From Gordonia humi (lineage in GTDB: Bacteria > Actinomycetota > Actinomycetes > Mycobacteriales > Mycobacteriaceae), in assembly GCF_014197435.1 (NCBI RefSeq), contig NZ_JACIFP010000001.1:2666001-2730000 (forward strand): 64,000 nt of DNA, written 5' to 3'. The position numbers and the translations under genes were made by a program. The notes below the pieces were generated by a model that searched no databases, was not told the origin of the DNA, and was given only the letters and a program-made list of their open reading frames with translations. Each line of letters begins with the position of its first letter. The first letter of the stretch is position 1. Positions 4,106-16,759 of this stretch are shown here, one piece after another.

Positions 4106-5473
4106 TCACACGTCGCCGCGACGCAGCATGCGTCCCTGCGCGGTCTGGTAGTCGACCTGCTTGCCGCGCAGCCACGTGCTCTTGACGACGCCTGCCAGGG
4201 CGCGGCCGTCGTACGGACTGATCGGGTTCTTGTGGTGCAGCTTGTGCACGTCGACGACCTGCGCGGACTCCGGTTCGAAGATCGCGAAGTCGGCGTCGCA
4301 GCCGAGTGCGATCCGGCCCTTGTTGGTCAGGCCGGCGAGCTGGGCGGGGTTGGTCGCCATCCACTCGATCACCTGGGGCAGATCGATGCCGCGGAGCTTG
4401 GCCTCGGTCCAGATGAGCGACAGCCCGAGCTGCAGTGACGCGACGCCGCCCCAGGCCACACCGAAGTCGCCGTTCTCCACGTCCTTGAGATCGACGGTCG
4501 ACGGCGAGTGGTCGGACACGATGCAGTTGATGGTTCCGTCGAGCAGCCCCTGCCACAGCAGTTCACGGTTCGACGCCTCGCGGATCGGCGGGCAGCACTT
4601 GTACGCGGTGCCGCCGTTGGGGATCTCCTCGGCCAGAAGCGTCAGGTAGTGCGGGCAGGTCTCGACGGTGATCTTCACGCCGTCGCGCTTGGCGGTCGCG
4701 ATCATCGGCAGCGCGTCCGACGACGACAGGTGCAGCACGTGCGCGCGAGCACCGGTCCAGCGGGCCCGCTCGATGACCTCGGCGATCGCCACGTTCTCGG
4801 CGCCCCGCGGACGCGACTTGAGGAATCGGTCGTACTGATTGCCCTCGGCGGTGGGGGCGTGGTCGATGGCGCGCGAGTCCTCGGCGTGGACGATCATCAT
4901 CGAGTCGAACCCGGCCAGCACGGCCATGTCCTTCTCCATCTCGTCCGCGTCCAAGTGTGGGAACTCGTCGACGCCCGAGTGCAGCAGGAAGCATTTGAAA
5001 CCGAAGACGCCCTCGTCGTGCAGGCCGCGCAGATCATCGGTGTTGCCCGGGATCGCGCCGCCCCAGAAGCCGACGTCGATGTGTGTCTTGCCCTGCGCCG
5101 CGGCGCGCTTGGCGGCCAGCGCCTCGACGTTGACGGTCGGCGGGATCGAGTTGAGAGGCATGTCGATGAGCGTCGTGACGCCTCCCGCCGCCGCGGCGCG
5201 GGTCGCGGAGTCGAATCCCTCCCACTCGGTGCGACCGGGTTCGTTCACGTGGACGTGCGTGTCGACCAGGCCGGGGATCATGACCTGCTCGTCGGTCAGT
5301 TCGATCACCTCGGTGCCGGTCAGGCCGCTACCCAGCGGTTCGATCGCGACGACGCGGCCGTCGCGGATGCCGATCTCGCGGGGGACGATGCCCGCAGTCG
5401 TCAGGGTGCGCTCGCCGCGAACGACCAGATCGAAACTCGGCTGGCTCGACTGCTCGGTGGCATCGATCGTCAT
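4106..5473 (-). CDS. allB: allantoinase
   Basis: A 455-residue amidohydrolase that opens the hydantoin ring of (S)-allantoin to give allantoate. All binuclear-zinc ligands expected in cyclic amidohydrolases are visible: HVH at residues 73-75, the carboxylated lysine K160 in FGFKCFL, H196 in HAED, H248 in HLSS and D321 in SDHSPS. Start ATG 5473 follows an AAGGAGAT-type ribosome site. The dyad at 5497-5513 lies just upstream, so the IclR regulator at 10384 probably controls it. Divergent from the permease gene. Confidence 0.95.
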   Translation of the reverse strand: MTIDATEQSSQPSFDLVVRGERTLTTAGIVPREIGIRDGRVVAIEPLGSGLTGTEVIELTDEQVMIPGLVDTHVHVNEPGRTEWEGFDSATRAAAAGGVTTLIDMPLNSIPPTVNVEALAAKRAAAQGKTHIDVGFWGGAIPGNTDDLRGLHDEGVFGFKCFLLHSGVDEFPHLDADEMEKDMAVLAGFDSMMIVHAEDSRAIDHAPTAEGNQYDRFLKSRPRGAENVAIAEVIERARWTGARAHVLHLSSSDALPMIATAKRDGVKITVETCPHYLTLLAEEIPNGGTAYKCCPPIREASNRELLWQGLLDGTINCIVSDHSPSTVDLKDVENGDFGVAWGGVASLQLGLSLIWTEAKLRGIDLPQVIEWMATNPAQLAGLTNKGRIALGCDADFAIFEPESAQVVDVHKLHHKNPISPYDGRALAGVVKSTWLRGKQVDYQTAQGRMLRRGDV

Positions 5474-5496
5474 GCAGGGATCTCCTTACGAGACGT

Positions 5497-5513
5497 GTTC
5501 CTCATCGTGGAAC
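5497..5513. promoter_or_regulatory. putative IclR/AllR operator in front of allB
   Basis: Perfect 5-base arms GTTCC (5497-5501) and GGAAC (5509-5513) around TCATCGT. It shares the TTCC-N7-GGAR spacing with the sites at 5628, 10253 and 10325. It lies 24 bases upstream of the allB start, where a bound repressor would block initiation. Confidence 0.6.
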
Positions 5514-5614
5514 TAAAACTCTACTCAACGGAAGATTTTAGATGTGAGGATTCCCACCGTCAATCGTGCGAAGAGCTTGACAGATCCCCGCTACATGAGA
5601 GTTACTTGACGACG

Positions 5615-5644
5615 TTGTGGAATACCTATTCCGCAAAGTGGAAT
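5615..5644. promoter_or_regulatory. putative IclR/AllR operator in front of the allantoin permease
   Basis: Two overlapping dyads. TTGTGGAATA (5615-5624), two bases, then TATTCCGCAA (5627-5636) pair at nine of ten positions. ATTCC (5628-5632), seven bases, then GGAAT (5640-5644) is a perfect copy of the shared TTCC-N7-GGAA motif. The site ends 48 bases before the permease start codon. Confidence 0.65.
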
Positions 5645-5691
5645 TCAGCGGCGGTCGTACGACCATCGCCCCGAACGTGAAAGTTCTTCCC

Positions 5692-7197
5692 ATGAGCACA
5701 GACACCGTAGAGTTCGTCGACGACCCGAGTCGCGACGACCGCAGTCGGCCCGCAGACGTCAGTCCGGCGCTGTACAACACCGACCTCGCGCCCACCAAGC
5801 GTGAGGGCCGTCGTTGGAGCGCCTACAACATCTTCACGTTGTGGGCCAACGACGTGCACAGCCTCGGCAACTACTCGTTCGCCATCGGGCTGTTCGCCCT
5901 GGGCCTGGGCGGCTGGCAGATCCTCCTGGCGCTCGTACTCGGCGCGGTCTTCCTGTTCCTGCTGCTCACGCTGTCCGGATTCATGGGGGAGAAGACCGGT
6001 GTCCCGTTCCCGGTGATGAGCCGTATCGCGTTCGGCATCCGTGGAGCGCAGATCCCGGCGCTGATCCGAGGCGGAGTGGCCATCGCGTGGTTCGGCATTC
6101 AGACCTACCTCGCCTCGGTCGTGTTCCGCGTGCTGATCATCGCGATCATTCCGTCGGCGTCGTCATTGGACGACAACAGCTTCCTGGGTCTGTCGACGCT
6201 GGGCTGGATCGCCTTCCTGATCCTGTGGGTGGTCCAGGTGATCATCGTCAGTTACGGCATGGAGATGATCCGCAAGTACGAGGCGTTCGCCGGACCGGTC
6301 ATCCTGATCACCATGATCGCCCTGGCGATCTGGATGCTCAGCAACGCCGGCTGGACCATCTCGTGGACCACCCCCGACTCGTTGACCGGCGGCGACATGT
6401 GGCTCAAGATCGTCGGCGGCGCCAGCCTGTGGGTCGCCATCTACGGCACCTTCGTCCTGAACTTCTGCGACTTCACGCGCAACGCGAAGTCGAAGGGCTC
6501 GATCGTCCGCGGCAACTTCTTCGGCATCCCGCTGAACATGCTCGTCTTCGGTGCGATCGTCATCATCCTGGCCGGCGCGCAGTTCCGCATCGACGGCCGC
6601 ATCATCGACTCGCCCGCGGAGATCGTCGAAGAGATCCCGAACACGTTCCTGCTGGTCCTGGCGTGCCTGGCGCTGCTGATCCTGACCGTCGCGGTCAACA
6701 TGATGGCGAACTTCGTCGCCCCGATCTACGCGCTGAACAACCTGTTCCCGAGGCACCTGAACTTCCGGCGCGCCGCGTTCATCTCCGCAGTCATCGGCCT
6801 GGTGATCCTGCCGTGGAACCTGTACGACAGCCCCGCCGTGATCAACTACTTCCTCGGCGGCCTCGGCGCCGTCCTGGGCCCGCTGTTCGGCATCATCATG
6901 GCCGACTACTGGCTGGTGCGTCGCAGCAAGGTGAATGTGAAGCACGTGTTCAGCGTGAACGCGAACGGCGACTACTTCTACACGCAGGGCGTGAACATGC
7001 GGGCCGCTCTGGCGCTGCTCGTCACCGCGGCATTCGCCCTGGTCGTGGCCTTCGTCCCGGCGTTCGACTCGGTCGCCGACTTCTCCTGGTTCATCGGCGC
7101 CGGACTCGGTGCGATCGTGTACCTGCTGGTCGCCGACCGGAAGGGCCCGTTCACAGATGCGGACGGCGAGGAGATCGCCGTCGCCAGCACGCACTAG
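5692..7197 (+). CDS. NCS1-family cytosine/purine/allantoin permease
   Basis: A 501-residue membrane transporter of the nucleobase:cation symporter-1 family, probably taking up allantoin. The signature WANDVHSLGNYSFAIGLF lies at the first TM helix, followed by about twelve hydrophobic segments with FCDFTRNAKS in the middle and the acidic C-terminus usual for the family. An upstream in-frame ATG exists at 5617, but it falls inside the operator, so ATG 5692 (MSTDTVEF) is preferred. The racemase gene follows on the same strand 45 bases on. Confidence 0.9.
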   Translation: MSTDTVEFVDDPSRDDRSRPADVSPALYNTDLAPTKREGRRWSAYNIFTLWANDVHSLGNYSFAIGLFALGLGGWQILLALVLGAVFLFLLLTLSGFMGEKTGVPFPVMSRIAFGIRGAQIPALIRGGVAIAWFGIQTYLASVVFRVLIIAIIPSASSLDDNSFLGLSTLGWIAFLILWVVQVIIVSYGMEMIRKYEAFAGPVILITMIALAIWMLSNAGWTISWTTPDSLTGGDMWLKIVGGASLWVAIYGTFVLNFCDFTRNAKSKGSIVRGNFFGIPLNMLVFGAIVIILAGAQFRIDGRIIDSPAEIVEEIPNTFLLVLACLALLILTVAVNMMANFVAPIYALNNLFPRHLNFRRAAFISAVIGLVILPWNLYDSPAVINYFLGGLGAVLGPLFGIIMADYWLVRRSKVNVKHVFSVNANGDYFYTQGVNMRAALALLVTAAFALVVAFVPAFDSVADFSWFIGAGLGAIVYLLVADRKGPFTDADGEEIAVASTH

Positions 7198-7209
7198 CAA
7201 GGACTCCGC

Positions 7210-7230
7210 TGGTCGAGCGGAGTGAAGACC
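7210..7230 (+). repeat. dispersed GGTCGAGCGGAGT-type repeat
   Basis: GGTCGAGCGGAGTGAAGACC in the permease-racemase gap matches the family GGTCGAGCGGAGTCGAGACC, also seen at 8091-8112, 11203-11225 and, reversed, at 27145-27164. Confidence 0.5.
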
Positions 7231-7242
7231 CAAGGAGCAACC

Positions 7243-7965
7243 ATGCGCATTCTCGTCGCCAACGTGAACACCACCGTGTCGATGACCGACGCGATCGCCG
7301 AGTCGGCGCGCGCCGTCGCATCGCCCGGTACGGAGATCGTCGGCATCACTCCGCGTTTCGGCGCGGACTCGTGCGAGGGCAATTTCGAGAGCTATCTCGC
7401 GGCGATCGCCGTGATGGACGCGATCACGTCGTACCCGGAGCCGTTCGACGCCGTCATCCAGGCCGGCTACGGCGAACACGGCCGTGAGGGGCTGCAGGAG
7501 TTGCTCGACGTCCCCGTCGTGGACATCACGGAGGCCGCGGCGTCGACCGCCATGTACCTCGGCCACAAGTATTCGGTCGTCACCACGCTCGACCGCACCG
7601 TGCCGCTCATCGAGGACCGTCTCAAGCTGGCGGGTCTCGACGACCGCTGCGCGTCGGTCCGCGCGTCCGGACTCGGCGTCCTGGAACTGGAGTCCGACCC
7701 CGAGCGGGCCGTCGAGGCGATCGTCGCGCAGTCGCGCGAGGCCGTCGAGAACGATCACGCCGAAGTCATCTGCCTCGGCTGCGGCGGCATGGCCGAACTC
7801 GAAGACAAGGTGAAGGCCGCCACCGGCGTGCCCATCGTCGACGGTGTCCGCTCGGCGGTCACCATCGCCGAGGGGCTGGTCCGTATGGGCCTGACCACGT
7901 CGAAGGTCCGCACGTACGCGACCCCGCGGCCCAAGACCGTCGTCGGCTGGCCGTTCCAGCTGTAG
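7243..7965 (+). CDS. allantoin/hydantoin racemase (Asp/Glu racemase superfamily)
   Basis: A 240-residue racemase of the HyuE/HpxA group. It would interconvert the allantoin enantiomers so that stereospecific allantoinase can use both. The first strand reads MRILVANVNTTVSMT. One catalytic cysteine region is GADSCEGNFESY (near residue 43; less canonical) and the other is ICLGCGGMAEL (near 178). ATG 7243 is chosen over GTG 7222 because AAGGAG sits six bases before it. It follows the permease and ends before a strong hairpin at 7979-8014. Confidence 0.85.
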   Translation: MRILVANVNTTVSMTDAIAESARAVASPGTEIVGITPRFGADSCEGNFESYLAAIAVMDAITSYPEPFDAVIQAGYGEHGREGLQELLDVPVVDITEAAASTAMYLGHKYSVVTTLDRTVPLIEDRLKLAGLDDRCASVRASGLGVLELESDPERAVEAIVAQSREAVENDHAEVICLGCGGMAELEDKVKAATGVPIVDGVRSAVTIAEGLVRMGLTTSKVRTYATPRPKTVVGWPFQL

Positions 7966-7978
7966 ACCTCCCGAGACA

Positions 7979-8014
7979 CGAGACCGGGCGTCGCCTCCCA
8001 GGCGCCCGGTCTCG
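7979..8014 (+). terminator. terminator after the racemase gene
   Basis: A 12-bp perfect stem, CGAGACCGGGCG (7979-7990) with CGCCCGGTCTCG (8003-8014), around a 12-base loop and followed by TCGTGTT. It begins 13 bases after the racemase stop. Confidence 0.7.
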
Positions 8015-8042
8015 TCGTGTTCGGCACCCTCCACGACGAAGC

Positions 8043-8077
8043 ACCGCCCGGCACGCGGAACACGCGTGCCGGGCGGT
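8043..8077 (-). terminator. terminator after allE
   Basis: A 15-bp perfect stem, ACCGCCCGGCACGCG (8043-8057) with its complement (8063-8077), and a 5-base loop. It lies 44 bases past the allE stop and back to back with the hairpin at 7979, separating the convergent transcripts. Confidence 0.7.
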
Positions 8078-8090
8078 AGCCGTCTCCTGC

Positions 8091-8112
8091 CGGTCGAGTG
8101 GAGTCGAGACCT
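8091..8112 (+). repeat. dispersed GGTCGAGTGGAGTCGAGACC repeat
   Basis: A copy of the GGTCGAGCGGAGTCGAGACY family, lying between the terminator pair and the allE stop codon. Confidence 0.5.
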
Positions 8113-8121
8113 CGTCGACGC

Positions 8122-8937
8122 TCAGAGCATGATCTGGCGGTTGACGTCCTTGTACAGCAGGTAGCGGAAGTTCGACGGCCCTCCGGCGTAGCAGGCCTGC
8201 GGGCAGAACGCGCGCAGCGAGAGGAAGTCGCCCTCCTGGACCTCCACCCAGTCGCCGTTGAGGTGGTAGACGGCCTTGCCTTCGAGCATCAGCAGGCCGT
8301 GCTCCATGACGTGGGTCTCGGCGAACGGAATGGTGCCGCCCGGCTCGAATGTCACGACGTTGACGTGCATGTCGTAGGCCAGGTCCTGCGGATCGAGCAT
8401 GCGCGTGGTGCGCCACTTGCCGTCGGTGTCGGGCATGGCCGAGGGTTCGATGTCCTGCTCGTTGCCGAACTTGATCGACGGGGTGTGACCCGCGATGGCC
8501 TCGTAACGCTTGCGGATCCACACGAACGACGCGTCGGCGTCTCCGTCGTTGCGGGCCGACCACGGGGTGCCGGCGGGCAGGTAGGCGAAGCCGCCTTCGG
8601 TGAGGGTCTGGCTCTGGCCGTCGGCGTCGACGGTCAGCGCGCCGGAGGTGACGAACAGGAAGCTCTGGACCTCGGGCTGCGGCTCGGGGCGCTGCGCGCC
8701 GCCACCGGGCTTGACCTCGACGATCGCCTGGAAATAGGTGGTCGCGCCGCCGGCGACCGGACGGTTGATGATCCATGCGCGGGTGTCGGTCCACTCGGGC
8801 AGAACCGAGGTGACGATGTCGGAGAGGACGCCGCGCGGGATCACGGTGTACGCCTCGGTGACGATGGCGCGGTCGGTCAACAGGTCGGTCTGCGGGGGCA
8901 GTCCGCCGCGGGGCGTGTAGTACGACGCAGTGGTCAC
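8122..8937 (-). CDS. allE: (S)-ureidoglycine aminohydrolase
   Basis: A 271-residue bicupin enzyme that releases ammonia from (S)-ureidoglycine to give (S)-ureidoglycolate. The first cupin spans about residues 60-130 (SFLFVTSGALTVDADGQ, FAYLPAGTPWSARN) and the second about 190-255. The second carries the metal-site run FAETHVMEHGLLMLEGKAVYHLN. Length and motifs fit E. coli AllE (YlbA). Start GTG 8937 overlaps the stop of the upstream CitE-like gene as GTGA, so the two are translationally coupled. Confidence 0.93.
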   Translation of the reverse strand: MTTASYYTPRGGLPPQTDLLTDRAIVTEAYTVIPRGVLSDIVTSVLPEWTDTRAWIINRPVAGGATTYFQAIVEVKPGGGAQRPEPQPEVQSFLFVTSGALTVDADGQSQTLTEGGFAYLPAGTPWSARNDGDADASFVWIRKRYEAIAGHTPSIKFGNEQDIEPSAMPDTDGKWRTTRMLDPQDLAYDMHVNVVTFEPGGTIPFAETHVMEHGLLMLEGKAVYHLNGDWVEVQEGDFLSLRAFCPQACYAGGPSNFRYLLYKDVNRQIML

Positions 8938-10211
8938 TGATTACTCCTGATCGGGCGGCCGAGCGCGAGGTCGCGCACGGTGGTCTGGGGAAGGTCGACG
9001 GCGGTCTCGATCTCGTCAACGGTGAGGGCGCCGCACACGCTGCCGCGGTTGATCACGTTGGCGAGGGCGCGGGCGGTGGCCGGCTCGTCCATCACCGTCG
9101 AGTCGAGCTTGTGGACGTAGTTGCGCAGCCGCGTCGCCGCGGGGGCGAAGGCGCCGCGGTAGAACGCGTAGGTCGCCAGATAGCGGGTCACCAGCTGAGC
9201 GGGATGCATGTCCCAGCCCTGGTAGATGCCGCGTTCGAGGTGGCGGCGGACGAGTCGGGCGTGGAGCCGCCATGCCGTTGCGATGTTGTCCGGATCGCCG
9301 ATCGGCAGGATGTTGGTGGAGCCGTCGGACATGTGCACGCCCGTTCCGGCGACAGCCAACTGCATGACGGATTTCGCGTGGTCGGCCGCGGGGTGCTCCA
9401 TCGACTGGTAGGCGGCGGCGATGCCGAGCGACGCCGAGTAGTCGTAGGTGCCGTAGTGCAGTGAGCTGACGCGGTCCTGACCGGCGTGGATGAACTGCGC
9501 GACCGGTGCGCGACCGTCCGCGCCGAGGATCGCCTGCGGCGTCTCGACCTGCACCTCGAACCGGATGCGGCCGGTCGGCAGGCCGTTCGCGGCCTCGAGC
9601 GCACCGGCGACGGCCACCATCGCCTCCACCTGATCGACCGAGGTGACCTTGGGGAGGGTCAGGGTCAGGCCGTCCGGGAGCCCGCCCGATTCGACGAGGC
9701 CGCTGACGAACATGTCCAGGGTGCGGAGTCCGCGGGCCCGAGTGCCCGCCTCGAAGCACTTGAAGCGGGTCCCGACGAACGGGGTGGAGGTGCCGGCGTC
9801 GAGGGCGGTCCGCAGGGCGGCGATCGCCTGGGTGACGTCGCCGTCCTCGGTGGTGTCGTCGAAGGTGCCGTAGCCGTCTTCGAAGTCGATGCGGAGGTCC
9901 TCGATCGGCTCGGTGCGCAGCTTGTCGTCGACGAGTGCGGCGAGGGTCTCGGGTGCGCAGTCGGAGTCCGACGTCGCGCCGACCATCGTGGCGACCTCGT
10001 CCAGTCCGCCACCGGCGCGCGCCGCTTCGAGTGCCGCGGTGCCCCAGTCGGCGGGCATCGTCGCCGTGTAGCGGTTGCCCGGGATGTAGACCGTGTGGAC
10101 GGGCTGGCGCCGTCCGTCGTCGCCGGGGTAGCGCGTCGCCAGTTGTGCGTCGGCGGCCGCGAGGCGGCGCTCGACGTCGGCGAGCACCGCGTCGTCGAGA
10201 CGTCGTGTCAC
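8934..10211 (-). CDS. CitE/HpcH-like aldolase-superfamily protein (DUF6986 type)
   Basis: A 425-residue protein of the HpcH/HpaI/CitE TIM-barrel superfamily. Metal-site acids appear in DLRIDFEDGYG (about 108-118) and in IRFEVQVETPQAIL (about 217-230). WDMHPAQLV near residue 336 matches the IHPxQ motif of CitE-type enzymes. The reaction is not assigned. Position in an allantoin operon suggests handling glyoxylate, the pathway's end product, perhaps by malate-synthase-like condensation (inference). GTG 10211 follows GAGGAG by seven bases; its stop overlaps allE. Confidence 0.75.
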   Translation of the reverse strand: MTRRLDDAVLADVERRLAAADAQLATRYPGDDGRRQPVHTVYIPGNRYTATMPADWGTAALEAARAGGGLDEVATMVGATSDSDCAPETLAALVDDKLRTEPIEDLRIDFEDGYGTFDDTTEDGDVTQAIAALRTALDAGTSTPFVGTRFKCFEAGTRARGLRTLDMFVSGLVESGGLPDGLTLTLPKVTSVDQVEAMVAVAGALEAANGLPTGRIRFEVQVETPQAILGADGRAPVAQFIHAGQDRVSSLHYGTYDYSASLGIAAAYQSMEHPAADHAKSVMQLAVAGTGVHMSDGSTNILPIGDPDNIATAWRLHARLVRRHLERGIYQGWDMHPAQLVTRYLATYAFYRGAFAPAATRLRNYVHKLDSTVMDEPATARALANVINRGSVCGALTVDEIETAVDLPQTTVRDLALGRPIRSNQ

Positions 10212-10252
10212 AGGTGTCTCCTCACTGTCGAGATGAATCCGCGGAACCCGAA

Positions 10253-10267
10253 TTCCACATCGTGGAG
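10253..10267. promoter_or_regulatory. putative IclR/AllR operator in front of the CitE-like gene
   Basis: TTCC (10253-10256), ACATCGT, GGAG (10264-10267). Six of the seven spacer bases equal those of the allB site (xCATCGT). The inner arms CCAC/GTGG pair perfectly. It lies about 40 bases upstream of the GTG at 10211. Confidence 0.55.
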
Positions 10268-10324
10268 TTTAGTATGTGTGGGTGGAGAAGTACAGGCCAG
10301 GGCGCTACCGGCCGGTAATCTCTA

Positions 10325-10339
10325 TTCCATATTGCGGAA
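10325..10339. promoter_or_regulatory. putative IclR/AllR operator in front of its own gene
   Basis: TTCC (10325-10328), ATATTGC, GGAA (10336-10339): the same TTCC-N7-GGAA dyad, 44 bases before the IclR start, suggesting autoregulation. A further TGGAA half-site pair follows at about 10347-10364. Confidence 0.55.
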
Positions 10340-10383
10340 GTGTTTTTGGAATTGTTTAATGGAACGAAATCTGTAGTTCGAGA

Positions 10384-11154
10384 GTGGGTCGTATGGCGGA
10401 GAAGACGGGCGGCGTTCAATCGGTGGAGCGCGCCTTCGAGCTGATGGAGCTCATCGGAAGGGCGGGCGGGGAGTGCTCGTTGACCGAGTTGTCGGCCGAG
10501 TCGCCGTTGCCGCCGCCGACCATTCACAGGCTGCTTCGCACCCTGGTCGGGATCGGTTACGTGCGACAGCTGCCGAATCGGCGGTACGCGCTCGGTCCTC
10601 GTCTGATCCGCCTCGGCGAGGTGGCCAACCGTCAGCTCGGCGCCGTCGCCGGCCCGGTGCTGCAGGCGCTGGTCGATCAGTTGTCGGAGACCGCCAGTCT
10701 CGCGGTGCTCGACGGCGACATGGCGATCTACACCGGGCAGGTTCCGTCGGCTCATCTGATGCGCACGAACAACGAGGTCGGCAAGCGAGTCGGCCTGCAC
10801 ACGTCCGGCGTCGGCAAGGCGGTGCTCGCCGAACTCGACGACGCGCGGATCCTCAAGCTGGTGACGCAGTCCGGGCTGCCCGCGCCGACGAGTAATAGTG
10901 CGTCGACCCTGTCGGCGGTGTTCGCGAACGTCGAGCGGACTCGCGTCGACGGCTACGCGATCGACGACGAGGAACTGGAGATCGGCGTCCGCTGCGTCGC
11001 GATGGCGGTGCCCGGTGCGCCGACTCCGATGGCCATCGGCATCTCTGGTCCCGCGGCGCGCGTGAACAAGGATCTGATCGCGAAGGCGGTACCCGCGCTG
11101 AAGAAGGCGACCGGGGTCATATCGGAAGCGTTGATCGGCGGTATGGAGGAGTAG
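10384..11154 (+). CDS. IclR-family regulator of the allantoin genes (AllR-like)
   Basis: A 256-residue IclR regulator. Residues 10-75 form the winged helix (SLTELSAESPLPPPTIHRLLRTLVGIGYV), and about 90-250 form the ligand domain with TSGVGKAVLA and the C-terminal IGISGPAARV. IclR proteins in purine catabolism (AllR) sense glyoxylate or allantoate and repress in its absence; that role is inferred from position and from the four matching dyads. GTG 10384 and ATG 10393 are both possible starts. It is divergent from the CitE-like/allE operon. Confidence 0.88.
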   Translation: MGRMAEKTGGVQSVERAFELMELIGRAGGECSLTELSAESPLPPPTIHRLLRTLVGIGYVRQLPNRRYALGPRLIRLGEVANRQLGAVAGPVLQALVDQLSETASLAVLDGDMAIYTGQVPSAHLMRTNNEVGKRVGLHTSGVGKAVLAELDDARILKLVTQSGLPAPTSNSASTLSAVFANVERTRVDGYAIDDEELEIGVRCVAMAVPGAPTPMAIGISGPAARVNKDLIAKAVPALKKATGVISEALIGGMEE

Positions 11155-11269: not shown

Positions 11270-11856
11270 ATTGCGTTGCCCGTCCGTGGCATGGCGACTG
11301 CCGCTGGCGTCGTCGCCCACTCCGACACAGACATGCCGATCGCCCTCGACGCTGCTGACATGGCACAGGTCACGACTCCGTCCAGCACGCTAGCGAGCGT
11401 TTCGGCGGCATTGACGTCCTCGTCAACAATGTGGGTTACGGTGTTCGAGCGGTGATTGAGAAAGCGGACAGGCCGTCGTCGAGCGACTCTTCGCGACGAA
11501 ACGTCTTCGGCCCCTATCTGACTGATGTGAGCGGTGCTGCTGCAGATGCGTGCCCGACGGTCGAGGACGGTTGCGCTTCTCGTCGATGAGCTCAGACGTC
11601 CGTCCGGCGGGATCTTGCGAGCACGCGGTCTCCAAGTCTGTGCTCAACAGCATCTCGGAGGCGCTCCGCTACGAAGTCGAGCCACTAAGAATCTGCTTCG
11701 ATACCGTGCAGCCGGGGGTTACGTCGACACGGCTGGGCACGAGTAAGGAGAGCGATCGCGGCCGCTGTCCGGCGCGGCGGACCCTGAGAAGGCTGCTCGT
11801 GTGCTGGTCGATCTGGTGGACGTCGATCGCGTGCCGATGCAACAACTCCCTACTGT
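11270..11856 (+). pseudogene. decayed short-chain dehydrogenase/reductase
   Basis: Fragments of one SDR enzyme appear in order but in different frames. DTDMPIALDAADMAQV is followed by a frameshift near 11380, then ERFGGIDVLVNNVGYGVRAVIE with the family NNxG motif. A second shift comes near 11480 (NVFGPYLTD). VLLQMRARRSRTV follows near 11535. VSKSVLNSISEALRYEVEPL, the remains of the YxxxK active-site helix with the Tyr lost, precedes TVQPGVTSTRLG. A tail resembling VLVDLVDVDRVPM runs to about 11850. The nucleotide-binding glycine motif and part of the middle are missing. It ends directly at a CRISPR-type repeat. Confidence 0.7.
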
Positions 11857-11884
11857 GGACCAACCCCGGTCGGGCGGGGAGCAC
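11857..11884 (+). CRISPR. lone type I-E-like CRISPR repeat left of the element
   Basis: This 28-base unit matches the repeat at 16501-16528 at 25 of 28 positions, in the same orientation (differences at repeat positions 7, 13 and 17). The stem CCCCG/CGGGG and the end GGGGAGCAC are kept. No further repeat is seen 61 bases to its left. With the three repeats at 16440-16589 it brackets the integrated element, so the element appears to have split the array. Confidence 0.7.
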
Positions 11885-11901
11885 CAGCGCTACGGCCACC
11901 G

Positions 11902-11912
11902 GGTACGCGAAG
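11902..11912. other. putative attL core
   Basis: GGTACGCGAAG, identical to 16397-16407. It lies 17 bases right of the CRISPR repeat ending at 11884 and 17 bases left of the last cargo gene's stop. Confidence 0.55.
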
Positions 11913-11929
11913 ATCGTAGTTTACACCCG

Positions 11930-12910
11930 TCAGATTTTGTGCACGGCTGTCTTGCACTGCTGGATGAAGTTAGCCCGTTCCGAGGTATGCCAGTCCGTGT
12001 CCACCCTATGTGCACGACGTATGGCAGGAATCAGCACCTGCCATACGTCCTGAACCATTCGGGGCCAGTACTCGTCCTCAGGCAGATCCGCCATGTCCTC
12101 GTCGTCGTACTCACTAGTGCGCAACACACTGAACGATAAATCGCTAGAGAGAGTGATTTCAAAGAAGCTGTCGGGGTTCCCCGAGTACGTAAAACTAAAT
12201 TTGGCGGGGCCGAAAGTTGCGTTCCCCTTTGCGATTAGCGCCAAAATGTCGGCCCGGTCTATACTCGCGCCCTGCGAGAATCTTGACCGCCAGATCTTTC
12301 CGTTCCTTGATTCCATACGCGAAATATCTGAGATCTTCAGGCTAGGAGAGAGTTGGCGCGCGTGCGCGTCTCGATAAAACAACCACAGGAAAAGGTCTGG
12401 GTCAAAGTCGTCGGTATTCGCATAATCGGTGACCATTGCCGAAGCGTTCTCGTAGCCTGGGGTCACCAAGTTTTCGAGTGCGGGCTTCACGATCGTCTTG
12501 ATTTCGGACGAGTTGGTGGTAGATACCAGCACAGTCAGCACTCCATCATCTTCAACCTCATCAAGAAGGATGAAATCCAATCCGCGTCGCTGAAAGTACT
12601 GATCCCTGTCGGCGACCTCACCCAGCGCTTTCCGCAGTGTGGTGTTCGCCTCTTCAAAATAGTATCGGGCCTCTATAACTGGCGTCTGCCACTGGTTTCT
12701 GCTCAGCGATGGATTTCCCGGCTCAAAGGAGTTCCGAAGGACTTCGCGTGTGGCGTGAACTGAATCGTCAGCGAAGCTTCCCCATCCCGAGGACGGACCT
12801 TCGGTCTGATGGTATTTCGCTGCATTCCTGAACAGGGTGCGCATGTCTTGATCGCCGACCTGAAGCCTGAGAGCGCTGATGTTAATTTGTCCCGTGGTTA
12901 GAAGTCCCAC
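11930..12910 (-). CDS. unknown protein, third gene of the element's cassette
   Basis: A 326-residue soluble protein I do not recognise. It starts at GTG 12910 (MGLLTTGQINISALRL), overlapping the upstream gene by 29 bases. The middle has a hydrophobic core stretch, GLDFILLDEVEDDGVLTVLVST (about 110-131). Near the C-terminus is an acidic run EYDDEDMADLPEDEYWP (about 266-282) followed by WQVLIPAIRRAHRVD. No TM segment, signal peptide or nucleotide-binding motif is visible. Codon use is AT-richer than host genes. By position it is part of a defence-type or accessory cassette (inference). Confidence 0.75.
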   Translation of the reverse strand: MGLLTTGQINISALRLQVGDQDMRTLFRNAAKYHQTEGPSSGWGSFADDSVHATREVLRNSFEPGNPSLSRNQWQTPVIEARYYFEEANTTLRKALGEVADRDQYFQRRGLDFILLDEVEDDGVLTVLVSTTNSSEIKTIVKPALENLVTPGYENASAMVTDYANTDDFDPDLFLWLFYRDAHARQLSPSLKISDISRMESRNGKIWRSRFSQGASIDRADILALIAKGNATFGPAKFSFTYSGNPDSFFEITLSSDLSFSVLRTSEYDDEDMADLPEDEYWPRMVQDVWQVLIPAIRRAHRVDTDWHTSERANFIQQCKTAVHKI

Positions 12911-13562
12911 CGCTGATTCCTTCCAAGACGAATCGGTCCACTGCCGACTCTAGCTTGGCTAGTCTAAATGATGTACGCCACAGTTTCGGCTCCCAACACC
13001 CCGACGTACGTACGTGAACCTCCTGCGTGTATTCTGTTTGGCCGACACGCTTCAGCGTGAAGTCGGCGGTGCACACCGTTCGGTCGCCGTCGAGTTCCAC
13101 CCCGTCGAAGATCAGGGCACGCCTATCGTCCCTGCATCGAAAATGAGAGGTGCCGCCTTGCTTGGTCAGACGCACCAGATCCCCCGGCACAATCTGTACC
13201 TCAACGCTGAACTTGCCTGCGAGGGAGCGCTTTAGAAGGTAGCGTTGTAGGACTGTCCCCCCAGTAACCTTCAATCCGAGGTTGAAGGTCTGCTTCTTTG
13301 CCTGAACTAGGACGTCCCCGGACAGGGGCCTGTCCCGGGAGTCCTTGCGCCACTCAAGTTCAACGGTGGGTCTGCCTAAGATGATGTCGCAGACGATGAA
13401 AACGACCAGAAACGCGATCACTAAGTCCACGATTAGCTTTACAAGTTCCCCGCCCCAGTAGTCTGTTGGCAGAAAGCTCCATTTCCCCAATAACCCGAAG
13501 GTTAGAATTCCCCCAAATAGCTGAGACCACTCTATGACTCTATCGCGATAGTAAGAGGACAT
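12882..13562 (-). CDS. unknown membrane protein: two TM helices plus beta-rich domain
   Basis: 226 residues. Two hydrophobic segments, about 13-31 (SQLFGGILTFGLLGKWSFL) and 41-62 (VKLIVDLVIAFLVVFIVCDI), are followed by a 160-residue region of alternating short strands with no helix-forming runs. This layout resembles the two-TM beta-strand-rich effectors (S-2TMbeta/Cap15) of CBASS anti-phage systems, but no sequence motif proves it and no cyclase gene is present. ATG 13562 overlaps the previous stop by one base (TGATG). It is the middle gene of a tight three-gene unit. Confidence 0.7.
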   Translation of the reverse strand: MSSYYRDRVIEWSQLFGGILTFGLLGKWSFLPTDYWGGELVKLIVDLVIAFLVVFIVCDIILGRPTVELEWRKDSRDRPLSGDVLVQAKKQTFNLGLKVTGGTVLQRYLLKRSLAGKFSVEVQIVPGDLVRLTKQGGTSHFRCRDDRRALIFDGVELDGDRTVCTADFTLKRVGQTEYTQEVHVRTSGCWEPKLWRTSFRLAKLESAVDRFVLEGISGGTSNHGTN

Positions 13563-14017
13563 CAGGGCTGCTGGCCCCCATTGAGTGCGCGGGACAGATA
13601 CTCTATTTCCTCCGCGTGGGCATGTACTACACCTTCTTGACCGAGAACAATTACGTTACCTGTATTACGGTTTCGTAGACGCACGTGGTCAACAAAGAGA
13701 TCAACGAGAAACCTGGCCTTAAAATCTTTTAAACCACGCCTGTCACTAGCCACTAGCCGACGCAGTCGCGGCTCAAGCTGATCTGCTATGTCTTCATCAA
13801 CTTCAGTGAAATACCGATCCACCAAAGAGAATTCTAAAATCTTGAACCCAGCGTGGGAAAGTTGCTCTGCGAAGTCTATGAGCAAGTCGGAACCGGCGTC
13901 GACTGTGCTAAAGCCCTCACTTTCAAGAACCTCAGGCTCCTTCTCGTCAGGGTTAGGTAGGGGTTCTATGCGGGACGTGTCACCGCTTCGGTCCTCGATC
14001 AGTTGAAGGACGGCCAT
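13562..14017 (-). CDS. unknown protein, first gene of the element's cassette
   Basis: A 151-residue soluble protein of no recognised family. The first 35 residues are polar and acidic (PNPDEKEPEVLESEG) and probably disordered. Residues 40-105 look alpha/beta with SLVDRYFTEVDEDIADQLEPRLRRL. A basic helix-strand unit, FKARFLVDLFVDHVRLRNRNTGNVIVL, follows. Start ATG 14017 is three bases from the end of the upstream frameshifted gene. It shares a one-base stop/start overlap with the membrane protein gene, so the cassette is one operon. Confidence 0.7.
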   Translation of the reverse strand: MAVLQLIEDRSGDTSRIEPLPNPDEKEPEVLESEGFSTVDAGSDLLIDFAEQLSHAGFKILEFSLVDRYFTEVDEDIADQLEPRLRRLVASDRRGLKDFKARFLVDLFVDHVRLRNRNTGNVIVLGQEGVVHAHAEEIEYLSRALNGGQQP

Positions 14018-14020
14018 GCT

Positions 14021-14444
14021 CTAATCCTTCCGTCTCGAATCTGTCGAACTGGGCGTGCGCCTTGGATACCAAGACGGTAGACCGTCCTTCTGACAATCAC
14101 GCGAAGGCAACGTTGCGTTGGCGTGCCATGATAGCAGGTCCATTAGTCGGTGCTCGTGCTGGAACCGAAGCGTGGTGAACGCTTCGCGCATGGCGGGGTC
14201 GCCCAGTGTGCTCGGCGGCAGTCCGGGGCGGTCAGGTAACCGACAGGGGTCGATCACTGCCTGGGTGGCCAGGAGACGCGCCACGTCGGCCTCAGGCAGT
14301 TGTCTGTACCCCTACTGTCACCGATGACCACCCCCCAGCTCCCGGGCACGCTTGCGCCTGAGCGTTCGTGATGCCAAGTTGTCGGGCCACGTCGATCACA
14401 GTTGCCACGGGTGGTTCCTTCCGGGGGCGTGGGCGTACGCTCAT
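14021..14444 (-). pseudogene. frameshifted small gene of the element
   Basis: ATG 14444 (MSVRPRPRKEPPVATVID) overlaps the previous stop as ATGA and reads VARQLGITNAQAQACPGAGGWSSVTVG, then runs into a stop. Removing one G from the GGGG near 14309 joins it to YRQLPEADVARLLATQAVIDP and a further 75 residues ending at 14021. The join restores one protein of about 140 residues with a possible HTH-like start. Function unknown. A real mutation or a homopolymer sequencing error would look the same. GTG 14284 could also start the second half alone. Confidence 0.5.
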
Positions 14445-14700
14445 ACGTCCACCCGCTGAAGTAGGACCACGCCACCGGGGTGCCAGCGAAGCTGGTTGTA
14501 CTTGCCTGAGCCGGGTACGCCCTGGACTTCATACGTGGTGTCTTGCTCATCAGGCAGGAGGAACCGGATTCCCCGACTCTTCGCTGATGGCCTAACTTCA
14601 CGGAACTGAGCATTCCTGTGCGGATATACCGCTTTACGGTAACCGGCGATATTCCGAGGTGTTCCGCCGCTTCCGCGACGGTGTATAGGCGTTCCGGCAT
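14441..14700 (-). pseudogene. helix-turn-helix (excisionase-like) gene with a frameshift
   Basis: ATG 14700 follows GAAGGG by ten bases and encodes MPERLYTVAEAAEHLGISP and VTVKRYIRTGMLSSVKLGHQR, a clear MerR/Xis-type DNA-binding domain. The frame then turns non-protein-like. Adding one G to the GGGG near 14577 continues as GIRFLLPDEQDTTYEVQG and on to LLQRVDV, stopping at 14441 exactly where the next gene starts (ATGA). Total about 86 residues. Probably the element's excisionase or cassette regulator; whether it is active depends on the shift being real. Confidence 0.6.
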
Positions 14701-14780
14701 GTGGTCCATTCCCTTCCCATAGGGGGTTGTTGATAGACTAATCAAAACACATGACGTCTCAATTACCGACTGACCAGTGT

Positions 14781-16388
14781 CTATTCTTCCAGCGTCGCCG
14801 TATCGCTCAGAATATCGGGCAGGTCAGCGAACACGCCGAATAGCTGATCGGCGTCCAGGTTCATTTTCAGATCGCCGTCCAACTCGAATTCGTCAACGAT
14901 TGTCCGGCTTCCTTTGGTGTGGGATTTCCACACGACGCGGAAGTTCATCTGACGTAGCCAGATGTTCTTCGCTTCGATGTCCTGGTCGGCCCACCAGTCC
15001 GCGAACAGTTCGCCGGTCGGTTCGTATCGCCGCCCGGCTGGTTCGTTCGGCGTGGCCGACAGATCGGCCTGGCGTTCGGTCAGGGAGGCAATGCGCTTAT
15101 CGAGCCGTTCGCGCTGAGGCGTGCCGCGCTTGAAGGCCCGGTACCCAGTTGGTCGGTCAGGTCGGCTAGTAGGTCGTTGACTTCGGCCAGTTCGTTGGTG
15201 TGATCGTTTCCGGCGAACCAGACGCGCTTCCGCCGTTCCATCGGCCCATGTTCTCCAACACCCGGCGTTCGATTTCGGCGTCTGCCCACTCAAGGCTGAT
15301 CGTCCGGTTGTCGCACTGGTCCTTGTATTATGCTGAGGCACAACGGTATCGGGGCTTCCTTCCCTGGCCACCCTTCAGGCGATAGGCAGGACGGCCACAT
15401 ACCCCGCAGTAGATGACCCGAAGCAACAGGCCCGAACTCCGCCTCGTGGGTTCCTTCCTGTTCTCCCGGCCCGACAGTTCGACACCGACACGCTCGAACA
15501 TGTCGCGGGTGATGATCGGCTCAGCACGGACGACCGGCGAACCGTCTTCACCGACCACGATCGTTCCCGGACCCAGCGCGCGGTGGCCTTTGTCGTCGCG
15601 CTGTATGCGGCCCTGGGCGTCCAGGACTGGTTCCCGGGTGAACGGATCCGGTCCAACAGCGTCAGGGATGTCAGCATTCGTTTGAGCGGTGCGGAATGCC
15701 ATTCGTAGTTTGCCACGTCGCGGCCCTTCACCTGGGCGAAGCGATCCTTCGGCGTGAGTATGCCCCGGCCTGTCAGGTCGTGGGCGATGGCGCGCAACGG
15801 TTCCCCGGCCAGCACCCGCTGAACGACTTCGTGGATCACCGCGACCTGCTCGGCGTCCTGGACCAGTCGCCAGGTGCCTTCGTCGTCACGCTCGGGTAGG
15901 TAGCCCCAGGGCGGCACGCCGCCGCGCCACTTGCCCGCTTTGATGTTGTGCCGGAACGCATTTGAGTTACGTTCGCTGATGGCTTCCAGTTCCATTTCAG
16001 CGACCTTCGCGACCAGCAACGCGATGATGTCGCCAAAGTCCGTACTGAGGTCGAAATGGGCTTCAGTAGCCGACACCAGGGCCACGTCGTGCTGGCGCGC
16101 CCAACGAATCGGGTCGGCCAGGTCGAACAGGCGGCGAACGATCCGGTCCACCCGGAAGAACACGATCATGTCGTACCGTGTGGGATCGTCCAGCCAGCGG
16201 CCTAGCTGTGGGCGGTCGAACGGTGAGGTCTTGCCCGCCGACACGTCCAGGTCTTCGGCCACACCAACCACCTGGTAGCCGCGCTTTTCGCACAGCTCCC
16301 GGCAGGCGTCTAGCTGTCGTTCCGGGCTGGTCGTAGCGTCAGTGACGCGGGACAATCGAGTGACGATCAGGGCGCGCTGGTTCCTCAT
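14781..16388 (-). pseudogene. large serine integrase, broken
   Basis: The catalytic domain is intact: RALIVTRLSRVTDATTSPERQ supplies the nucleophile serine near residue 11, and FFRVDRIVRR and ISERNSNAFRHN are typical. The recombinase domain (PPWGYLPERDDEG, LTGRGILTPKDRFAQVKG) follows. After KRMLTSLTLL the frame shifts near 15640. The zinc-ribbon part (IYCGVCGRPAYRL) ends at an in-frame TAA at 15328-15330. Two more single-base shifts fall near 15245 and 15145 before the end NLDADQLFGVFADLPDILSD. Four lesions in 1.6 kb mean the protein is probably inactive and the element immobile. Confidence 0.85.
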
Positions 16389-16396
16389 GGAGTGTT

Positions 16397-16407
16397 GGTA
16401 CGCGAAG
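16397..16407. other. putative attR core
   Basis: GGTACGCGAAG, identical to 11902-11912, nine bases upstream of the integrase start. CACC left of the left core and GGTG right of this one would form a dyad in the rejoined attB, as serine integrases prefer. Confidence 0.55.
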
Positions 16408-16439
16408 GGTGTAACGCAAGACTACCGCGTAAGCAACTG

Positions 16440-16589
16440 GGGCCATCCCTGCTCGCGCAGGGAGCACACACTCAGTACCTCGCGGTCACCGCGTAAGAAC
16501 GGACCATCCCCGCTCGCGCGGGGAGCACGTCTCCGCCGGTGCCGCAGCGAACTGGTTCCGGGGGTCATCCCCGCTCGTGCGGGGAACAC
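16440..16589 (+). CRISPR. three-repeat type I-E-like CRISPR array
   Basis: Repeats of 28 bases at 16440-16467, 16501-16528 and 16562-16589, exactly 61 bases apart, with 33-base spacers at 16468-16500 and 16529-16561. Each has a 6-bp stem around a TCGC or TCGT loop and ends GGGARCAC, the form usual for type I-E in actinomycetes. The first repeat changes one stem pair from C-G to T-A on both sides, keeping the hairpin. No cas genes are in the window, so it is an orphan remnant. Nothing convincing follows up to 16759. Confidence 0.82.
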
Positions 16590-16759
16590 GCTTCTTGACC
16601 TGCAGAAATGCTAGCACGAAGTCGCTTTCAGAATGGCCTTGTGCCTGTCGCGCTCGAGGTCGGACTCGGTGTGCAGGATCGGCATCGAGCCGTCGGTGGC
16701 ACCGAACGAAAGTCGGCTCGCGGTCGCCGACGGGTACCTATGGAGGCGGTGTCCACGGG

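Follow-up and report, generated by a model that had tools for sequence, protein, structure and literature searches.

The window analysed here, 64,000 nucleotides from Gordonia humi (contig NZ_JACIFP010000001.1, positions 2,666,001 to 2,730,000 of the forward strand), contains a type I-E clustered regularly interspaced short palindromic repeats (CRISPR) array that is interrupted by an element of about 4.5 kb bearing the remains of a serine integrase. We consider it likely that this small element, related to phage-inducible chromosomal islands (PICI) and of the phiRv1 type, inserted at a secondary site, using spacer 1 of the array as a pseudo-attB, that the landing was accidental and that the element has decayed since. 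This reading draws on the sequence itself: the ends of the element, the symmetry of its attP, the repeats on either side, the usual integration site of the integrase family and the split DUF4244 gene of the same genome (G000; 5.09 Mb on three contigs). In the following, G and L numbers are our handles for genomes and loci. The array and the junctions are made up of these features:

11857-11884, plus strand: CRISPR repeat 1, leader-distal terminal repeat to the left of the element, 25/28 bases (89%) identical to 16501-16528
11885-11905, plus strand: left portion of spacer 1 between repeat 1 and the core, B arm of attB with the TA core at its end
11904-11905: left crossover core TA, ranked first for attP symmetry among 359 possible 2-bp joins; TA-N16-TACACCC seen directly
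11906-11928: P' arm of attP (element end), forming a 48-bp quasi-palindrome with 16407-16431
16407-16429: P arm of attP on the integrase side, with a TACACC-like hexamer after TA-N16 as it is found in 14 relatives
16430-16431: right crossover core TA, placed by the N16 rule of the relatives and by attP symmetry
16432-16439, plus strand: right portion of spacer 1, with which the B' arm of attB begins, assigned by the likeness of rejoined spacer 1 to spacer 2
16440-16467, plus strand: CRISPR repeat 2, the first ~10-14 nt probably part of the attB right arm
16468-16500, plus strand: spacer 2, 33 nt (spacing 61)
16501-16528, plus strand: CRISPR repeat 3
16529-16561, plus strand: spacer 3, 33 nt, leader-proximal
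16562-16589, plus strand: CRISPR repeat 4, leader-proximal
16590-16650: probable leader; the array would be read away from it, on the minus strand

The repeats to the right of the element start at 16440, 16501 and 16562, lie on one strand and keep a period of 61 bp. With repeats of 28 bp, 33 nt each for spacers 2 and 3 and either 29 or 33 nt for spacer 1, the arrangement is that of a type I-E array, and the large arrays of G019, G020 and G024, Gordonia genomes that encode Cse1 (PF09481; a search of 41 genomes was positive in 4/41), have repeats of the same kind. A degenerate repeat pattern allowing up to three mismatches matched three times in the window against 0.00 expected from 100 shuffles, and at the same tolerance a search of the whole genome returned exactly the four repeats listed; the opposite strand and the reversed control gave no match. 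The first-pass annotation had described repeats of one kind and orientation on both sides of the element, and this holds. It is very unlikely in our view that repeat 1 arose by chance or was moved independently to its place, with the element lying merely beside a three-repeat array. In favour of such a coincidence one may cite that a join at TA leaves the spacing 4 bp off and that an uninterrupted array was seen in no relative; however, repeat 1 retains 25/28 identities, is situated some 20 bp from the end of the element on the strand of the others and is one of only four matches in the genome against none in the control, and the adjoining half-spacer is similar to spacer 2 (p ~0.01). Viral genomes can carry solitary repeats, as described in an excerpt of PMC10651486, so that repeat 1 might have been brought in by the element as an RNA anti-CRISPR of the Racr type. 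We regard this as extremely improbable, because the repeat lies outside the element, its end 19 nt from the TA core, and the other three are found beyond the opposite end of the element.

The position of the crossover emerges from the ends of the element. When these are joined at TA (11904/16430), an attP of 48 bp is rebuilt in which 15 of 23 pairs are symmetric. This is the most symmetric of the 359 possible joins (mean 5.8, sd 2.1), and none of the 770 TA sites in the window reaches 15/23. The ends thereby yield a quasi-palindrome of about 50 bp around a shared 2-bp core, TA, at which we would place the crossover to the exact base. The same join restores spacer 1 as CAGCGCTACGGCCACCGGGTAAGCAACTG, which aligns with spacer 2 at a local score of 12, a value reached by fractions of 0.0015 and 0.0008 of the shuffles; a likeness to spacer 2 equal to that of spacer 1 occurs in 27 of 9129 background windows. 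The left part of spacer 1 contains CGGCCACCGGGTA, which is similar to CGGTCACCGCGTA in spacer 2 (p ~0.01 for the left part alone). These observations support spacer 1, the leader-distal spacer, as the attB within the array, and the right arm of attB probably extended into repeat 2. The first-pass annotation had placed the serine-integrase element inside a type I-E-like array with its attB in that array, and the junctions obtained from attP symmetry and from the P-arm motif of the relatives bear this out. An 11-bp direct repeat, GGTACGCGAAG (11902-11912 and 16397-16407), was considered as core and rejected as a decoy: its right copy is located inside the P arm, joins in its register reach at most 9/23 symmetric pairs, and L098, which is the same locus as L115, shows a similar stretch in its P arm.

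For comparison, we gathered relatives of the integrase by searching 59 Gordonia genomes (13/59 positive at E<=1e-30), 298 genomes of the order (5/298 at 1e-70) and 401 genomes of the family (19/401 at 1e-75), and by alignment-based searches that gave 16 integrase loci from genome_contigs and 50 loci, four of them used, from viral_contigs; a scan of genome_contigs with the single integrase as query found no relative. Motifs in the sequence upstream of the integrase, 420 nt at most, served to label 34 distinct relatives; this set leaves aside a decayed copy from the same genome (L039/L108), the relatives at 35-39% (L101-L104, L106, L107), the viral_contigs loci L158-L200 and L202-L204 and the duplicates in upstream sequence L246, L247, L252 and L257. 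Half of a DUF4244 gene, which is Flp-pilin-like, adjoins the integrase in 23 of the 34, a groEL-like end in three (one a free phage), and eight carry no label. The Gordonia I-E repeat is found upstream in 0/34 (best 18/28), and a regular array of any kind, i.e. at least three evenly spaced repeats within 1500 nt upstream, in 0/32 relatives with more than 100 nt of upstream sequence, while both positive controls, the array of the window and a control array, were detected. It had been proposed that an immunity array serves as the landing site of such elements and that the att sites of integrase homologues might be sought near CRISPR repeats; these counts do not support the former and yield no instance of the latter. 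Since the relatives reside mostly at the pilin-like gene, the insertion in the window appears as a rare off-target landing and not as a habit of attacking arrays.

The half of DUF4244 on the integrase side is the N-terminal one in 14 relatives and the C-terminal one in nine, so both insertion orientations occur. This is expected if TA is the central dinucleotide, because TA is a palindrome; efficient strand exchange requires parallel alignment relative to the central dinucleotide (excerpt of PMC3783163). In 14/23 DUF4244 relatives a TACACC-like hexamer follows exactly 16 nt after TA (TACACC itself in eight), and the other nine do not satisfy the TA-N16 motif as written. Both halves of DUF4244 were seen flanking the insertion in five cases only (G020, G009, G071, G019 and the genome under study) and a single half in the others; in L097 this half lies ~270 bp from the integrase, and in L141 the match is diverged. 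The integrases seen that are nearest to that of the window, L139 and L140 (82-83%; 68-88% identical over the later frame pieces), sit at DUF4244. In a tree of 33 integrases, which lacks the short L155 and L152, the window integrase falls into a group of 23 rows with poor resolution, of which 19 are DUF4244, and is nested among DUF4244 users. The site is used in Gordonia, Mycobacterium sensu lato and Tsukamurella. The clade using DUF4244/TA includes, among others, L109-L115, L117, L139-L142, L144, L145, L152 and L154. In the literature searched, DUF4244 together with integrases came up in one paper, which by its title concerns bifidobacterial typing.

It is conceivable, although we judge it improbable, that the integrase lineage has evolved specificity for this very spacer and repeat, which would make the array a true attB. 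Switching of sites does seem to occur within the clade, as L147 (69%) resides beside a groEL-like end and yet groups with DUF4244 users, and cargo homologues 81-94% identical lie in sequences whose att sites could not be seen. Against this stand the nearest integrases seen, both at DUF4244, and the lack of an I-E repeat in the 34 relatives and of any regular array in the 32 examined for one. Moreover, spacers vary among strains, and a spacer would thus be poorly suited as a stable attB.

The accidental insertion that we favour may have had its occasion in the state of the usual site. DUF4244 is present in all 59 Gordonia genomes including the one under study, where its profile detects only the C-terminal part, because a related integrase (70% identical) adjoins the N-terminal half at 1418.7 kb of contig C1. 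The two halves, at 1418.7 kb and 1448.9 kb, are separated by an insertion of ~30 kb (L110, L124, L125) with an open integrase frame of 575 aa, which splits the sole DUF4244 gene found; the usual site is therefore occupied today. The array also offers some likeness to that site. When TA sites in the window are scored with a matrix of 30 intact DUF4244 sites, 8 of 1538 reach the value of the attB, and over the 22 nt of the right arm only 2/1538 do so; GGGCCATCCC of the repeat occupies the position of the right-arm motif of DUF4244. One could go further and propose that a captured spacer and the start of the next repeat together formed a usable attB, in other words that the CRISPR system made its own landing site. 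We assign this a low probability, but if true, growing arrays can generate fresh attachment sites for serine-integrase elements.

The favoured history can be sketched as follows. A PICI-like element of the Mycobacteriales, with an integrase from a Bxb1-like family that mostly inserts into DUF4244 at a TA core, would have been diverted to a secondary site by occupation of the primary one. Its attP would have recombined with a pseudo-attB consisting of spacer 1 and probably the first bases of the next repeat, and the half-site in the array may have been recognised through its resemblance to the right arm of DUF4244. Later decay would account for the frameshifts in the integrase and the absence of the phage-structural module and of cas genes. 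Only the oldest spacer would have been cut off. Since the leader and the two leader-proximal spacers lie outside the element, immunity need not have been broken.

Several observations weigh against this history or parts of it. The order of events, i.e. whether the insertion into DUF4244 came first and whether the array was alive or dead at the time, is not readable from the DNA. The attB scores -15.5 on the DUF4244 matrix, on which real sites reach 50 to 60, and is hence a low-grade pseudo-site; its left arm over 18 nt is unlike DUF4244 (203/1538 TA sites equal it), and by simple scaling the genome should hold hundreds of equally good TA sites. Spacers 1 and 3 as well as 2 and 3 are mutually unalike. 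A score of 12 against spacer 2 is likewise attained by joins that leave 36 and 44 nt, and three joins in the TA register score 14, which slightly weakens the case for TA. An empty site was found in none of the relatives searched. Finally, the TA join results in a spacer 1 of 29 nt and a period of 57 bp, whereas across seven array loci from four Gordonia genomes 459 of 487 intervals measure 61 bp and none 57 bp. The last point would be removed by a crossover only 2 bp away, at CG (11906-11907/16428-16429), with the remaining history unchanged: spacer 1 then has the regular 33 nt, the canonical 61-bp period is recovered and attP symmetry still amounts to 14/23. We keep this placement as a rival, albeit an unlikely one, as the TACACC-like hexamer of the 14 DUF4244 relatives keeps its 16 nt from TA and not from CG in either insertion orientation, and spacer 1 rejoined at CG is a poorer fit to spacer 2 (score 9, p 0.028, versus 12).

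The search for an empty site covered both flanks. With the left flank, no match joining flank and array appeared in 59 Gordonia genomes (own included). With the right flank, none of the matches listed for 41 genomes joins the array and TetR, and an extension to the 59 genomes gave no empty site either. The locus or part of it was recovered as 15 loci from 14 genomes; none has an array of these repeats, and in all of them the short-chain dehydrogenase (SDR) remnant, TetR and MFS were unmatched by tblastn. Both IclR and nuoN are present in six of the 15 (L077-L082). The SDR remnant is found at 11330-11850, directly to the left of the array; its PF00106 match over 11553-11855 (E=2e-4) does not reach the curated cut-off. 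Further to the left, frame reading suggests a purine (allantoin) degradation cluster at 4106-11154 with allantoinase, permease, racemase, aminohydrolase, malate-synthase-like protein and IclR regulator.

On the right, G019 and G060 each have two array loci whose corresponding end matches the sequence at 16590-16650 (scores 32-40 versus ~16 for shuffled sequence), and because of this match to the end of other arrays that sequence was taken as the leader, which puts the leader-distal end on the left. The likeness is unconvincing for G020 (51/500 shuffles as high) and G024 (98/500). In the genome under study neither cse1 (PF09481) nor cas1 (PF01867) was matched; other cas families were not searched. 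The cas1 profile is positive in 11/59 Gordonia genomes but missed G024, which encodes Cse1, so a single cas1 negative is not proof. We regard the array, with its three spacers, as an orphan relic. The statement in the first-pass annotation that integration split a CRISPR locus accordingly survives in a weak form: the array is interrupted, but cse1 and cas1 were not found, four repeats remain and it is the leader-distal spacer that was hit. As to the origin of the spacers, a comparison with 50,697 phage records gave only E of 4 for spacer 2 and E of at least 1 for spacer 3, and against 1.8 Mb of fetched loci the three spacers matched no better than shuffles did. Of 28 plasmid records with a match, the 15 listed match in the repeat region only.

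The element itself spans 11906-16429, bounded by the TA cores, and has a GC content of 58.0% compared with 68.4% in the rest of the window. A low-GC serine-integrase element of this size had already been recognised in the first-pass annotation; its bounds are corrected here. All genes are on the minus strand and run leftwards from the integrase. A locus from Mycolicibacterium iranicum (L237) combines the same integrase type with the same three cargo genes and serves as reference below:

14781-16388, minus strand: serine integrase pseudogene in four frame pieces (three frameshifts), PF00239 E=3.5e-26, phrog_95 integrase
14254-14745, minus strand: small HTH_17 protein, excisionase-like (PF12728 E=4e-9; phrog_66 excisionase/regulator E=3e-7)
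13562-14017, minus strand: cargo gene, 151 aa, intact frame, 39% to its L237 counterpart
12882-13562, minus strand: cargo gene, 226 aa, intact frame, 27% to its L237 counterpart
11930-12910, minus strand: cargo gene, 326 aa, intact frame, 10 homologues 53-94% identical, 34% to its L237 counterpart

Aligned with the integrase of L140, the pieces correspond to 16376-15645, 15639-15244, 15253-15137 and 15146-14796. The domains of a large serine integrase are present, with PF07508 (recombinase, E=1.8e-5) in addition to PF00239 (resolvase), and since the frame is broken into four pieces we regard the gene as a relic. The three cargo frames have no family match in Pfam, PADLOC or PHROGs, and a fold predicted for the 326-aa protein with a pLDDT of 79 matched nothing in the PDB at E<=0.001. 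These frames (11930-14017) overlap and are common to the M. iranicum element; they are possibly defence or other accessory cargo. In L237 they are located 7-9 kb from the integrase, separated from it by genes for capsid, scaffold, small terminase, head-tail adaptor and a replication-initiation-like protein. In the 4.5-kb element no packaging or head genes were recognised in Pfam and PHROG scans, and it can thus only be termed derived from a PICI-like satellite. Most likely it is a trimmed remnant of a satellite such as that in L237. Mycobacteria carry PICI-like elements with serine integrases (excerpt of PMC10654092). A second, more decayed relative resides in the same genome (L039 6648-8402; G000:C1, ~681.6 kb), with an integrase 63% identical over 158 aa, a helix-turn-helix remnant and, by eye, an adjacent IS3-like transposase; upstream of it may lie a worn DUF4244.

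The case presented here is one of a serine-integrase element in a CRISPR spacer, located to within ~2 bp. It suggests that a landing in an array can happen by accident, perhaps owing to site occupancy, and not as an assault on immunity. It also exposes a recurrent DUF4244/TA attachment site, so that attP/attB pairs of the clade become directly testable. Among known systems, insertion sequences move by transposition; like the window element they are mobile DNA breaking CRISPR loci, while the latter entered by recombination of attP with attB. Two insertions of this size interrupt the large array of G020 (L241 2764-4966 and 7047-8540, likened by eye to IS21 and IS256), which makes the interruption of an array as such appear ordinary. 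Insertion sequences have also been described from CRISPR-Cas loci, in cas genes (excerpt of PMC10359306). A serine integrase within a CRISPR array was not encountered in literature judged by titles and the beginnings of abstracts (including PMC8616872 and PMC10654092).

Prophages of Streptococcus pyogenes integrate into CRISPR direct repeats and disrupt immunity (Varble et al. 2021, as cited in an excerpt of PMC10359306). Within the limits of that excerpt, both cases concern integrative elements in a CRISPR array, but the streptococcal phages hit direct repeats, whereas in the window the core lies in a spacer, four repeats remain and cas1 and cse1 were not found. An anti-CRISPR insertion strategy like that of S. 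pyogenes is not apparent, the relatives of the window integrase not having been found at arrays.

The attP of Bxb1 is about 48 bp in size and its core is GT. We take the window integrase to be Bxb1/phiRv1-like, and it is 56% identical to the integrase of Mycobacterium phage Severus. It shares with the Bxb1/phiRv1 type the phrog_95 family, the attP of 48 bp and a relative, L237, with capsid, scaffold and small terminase; it differs in the TA core, the usual site in DUF4244, the size of 4.5 kb, the broken integrase and the location in a CRISPR spacer.

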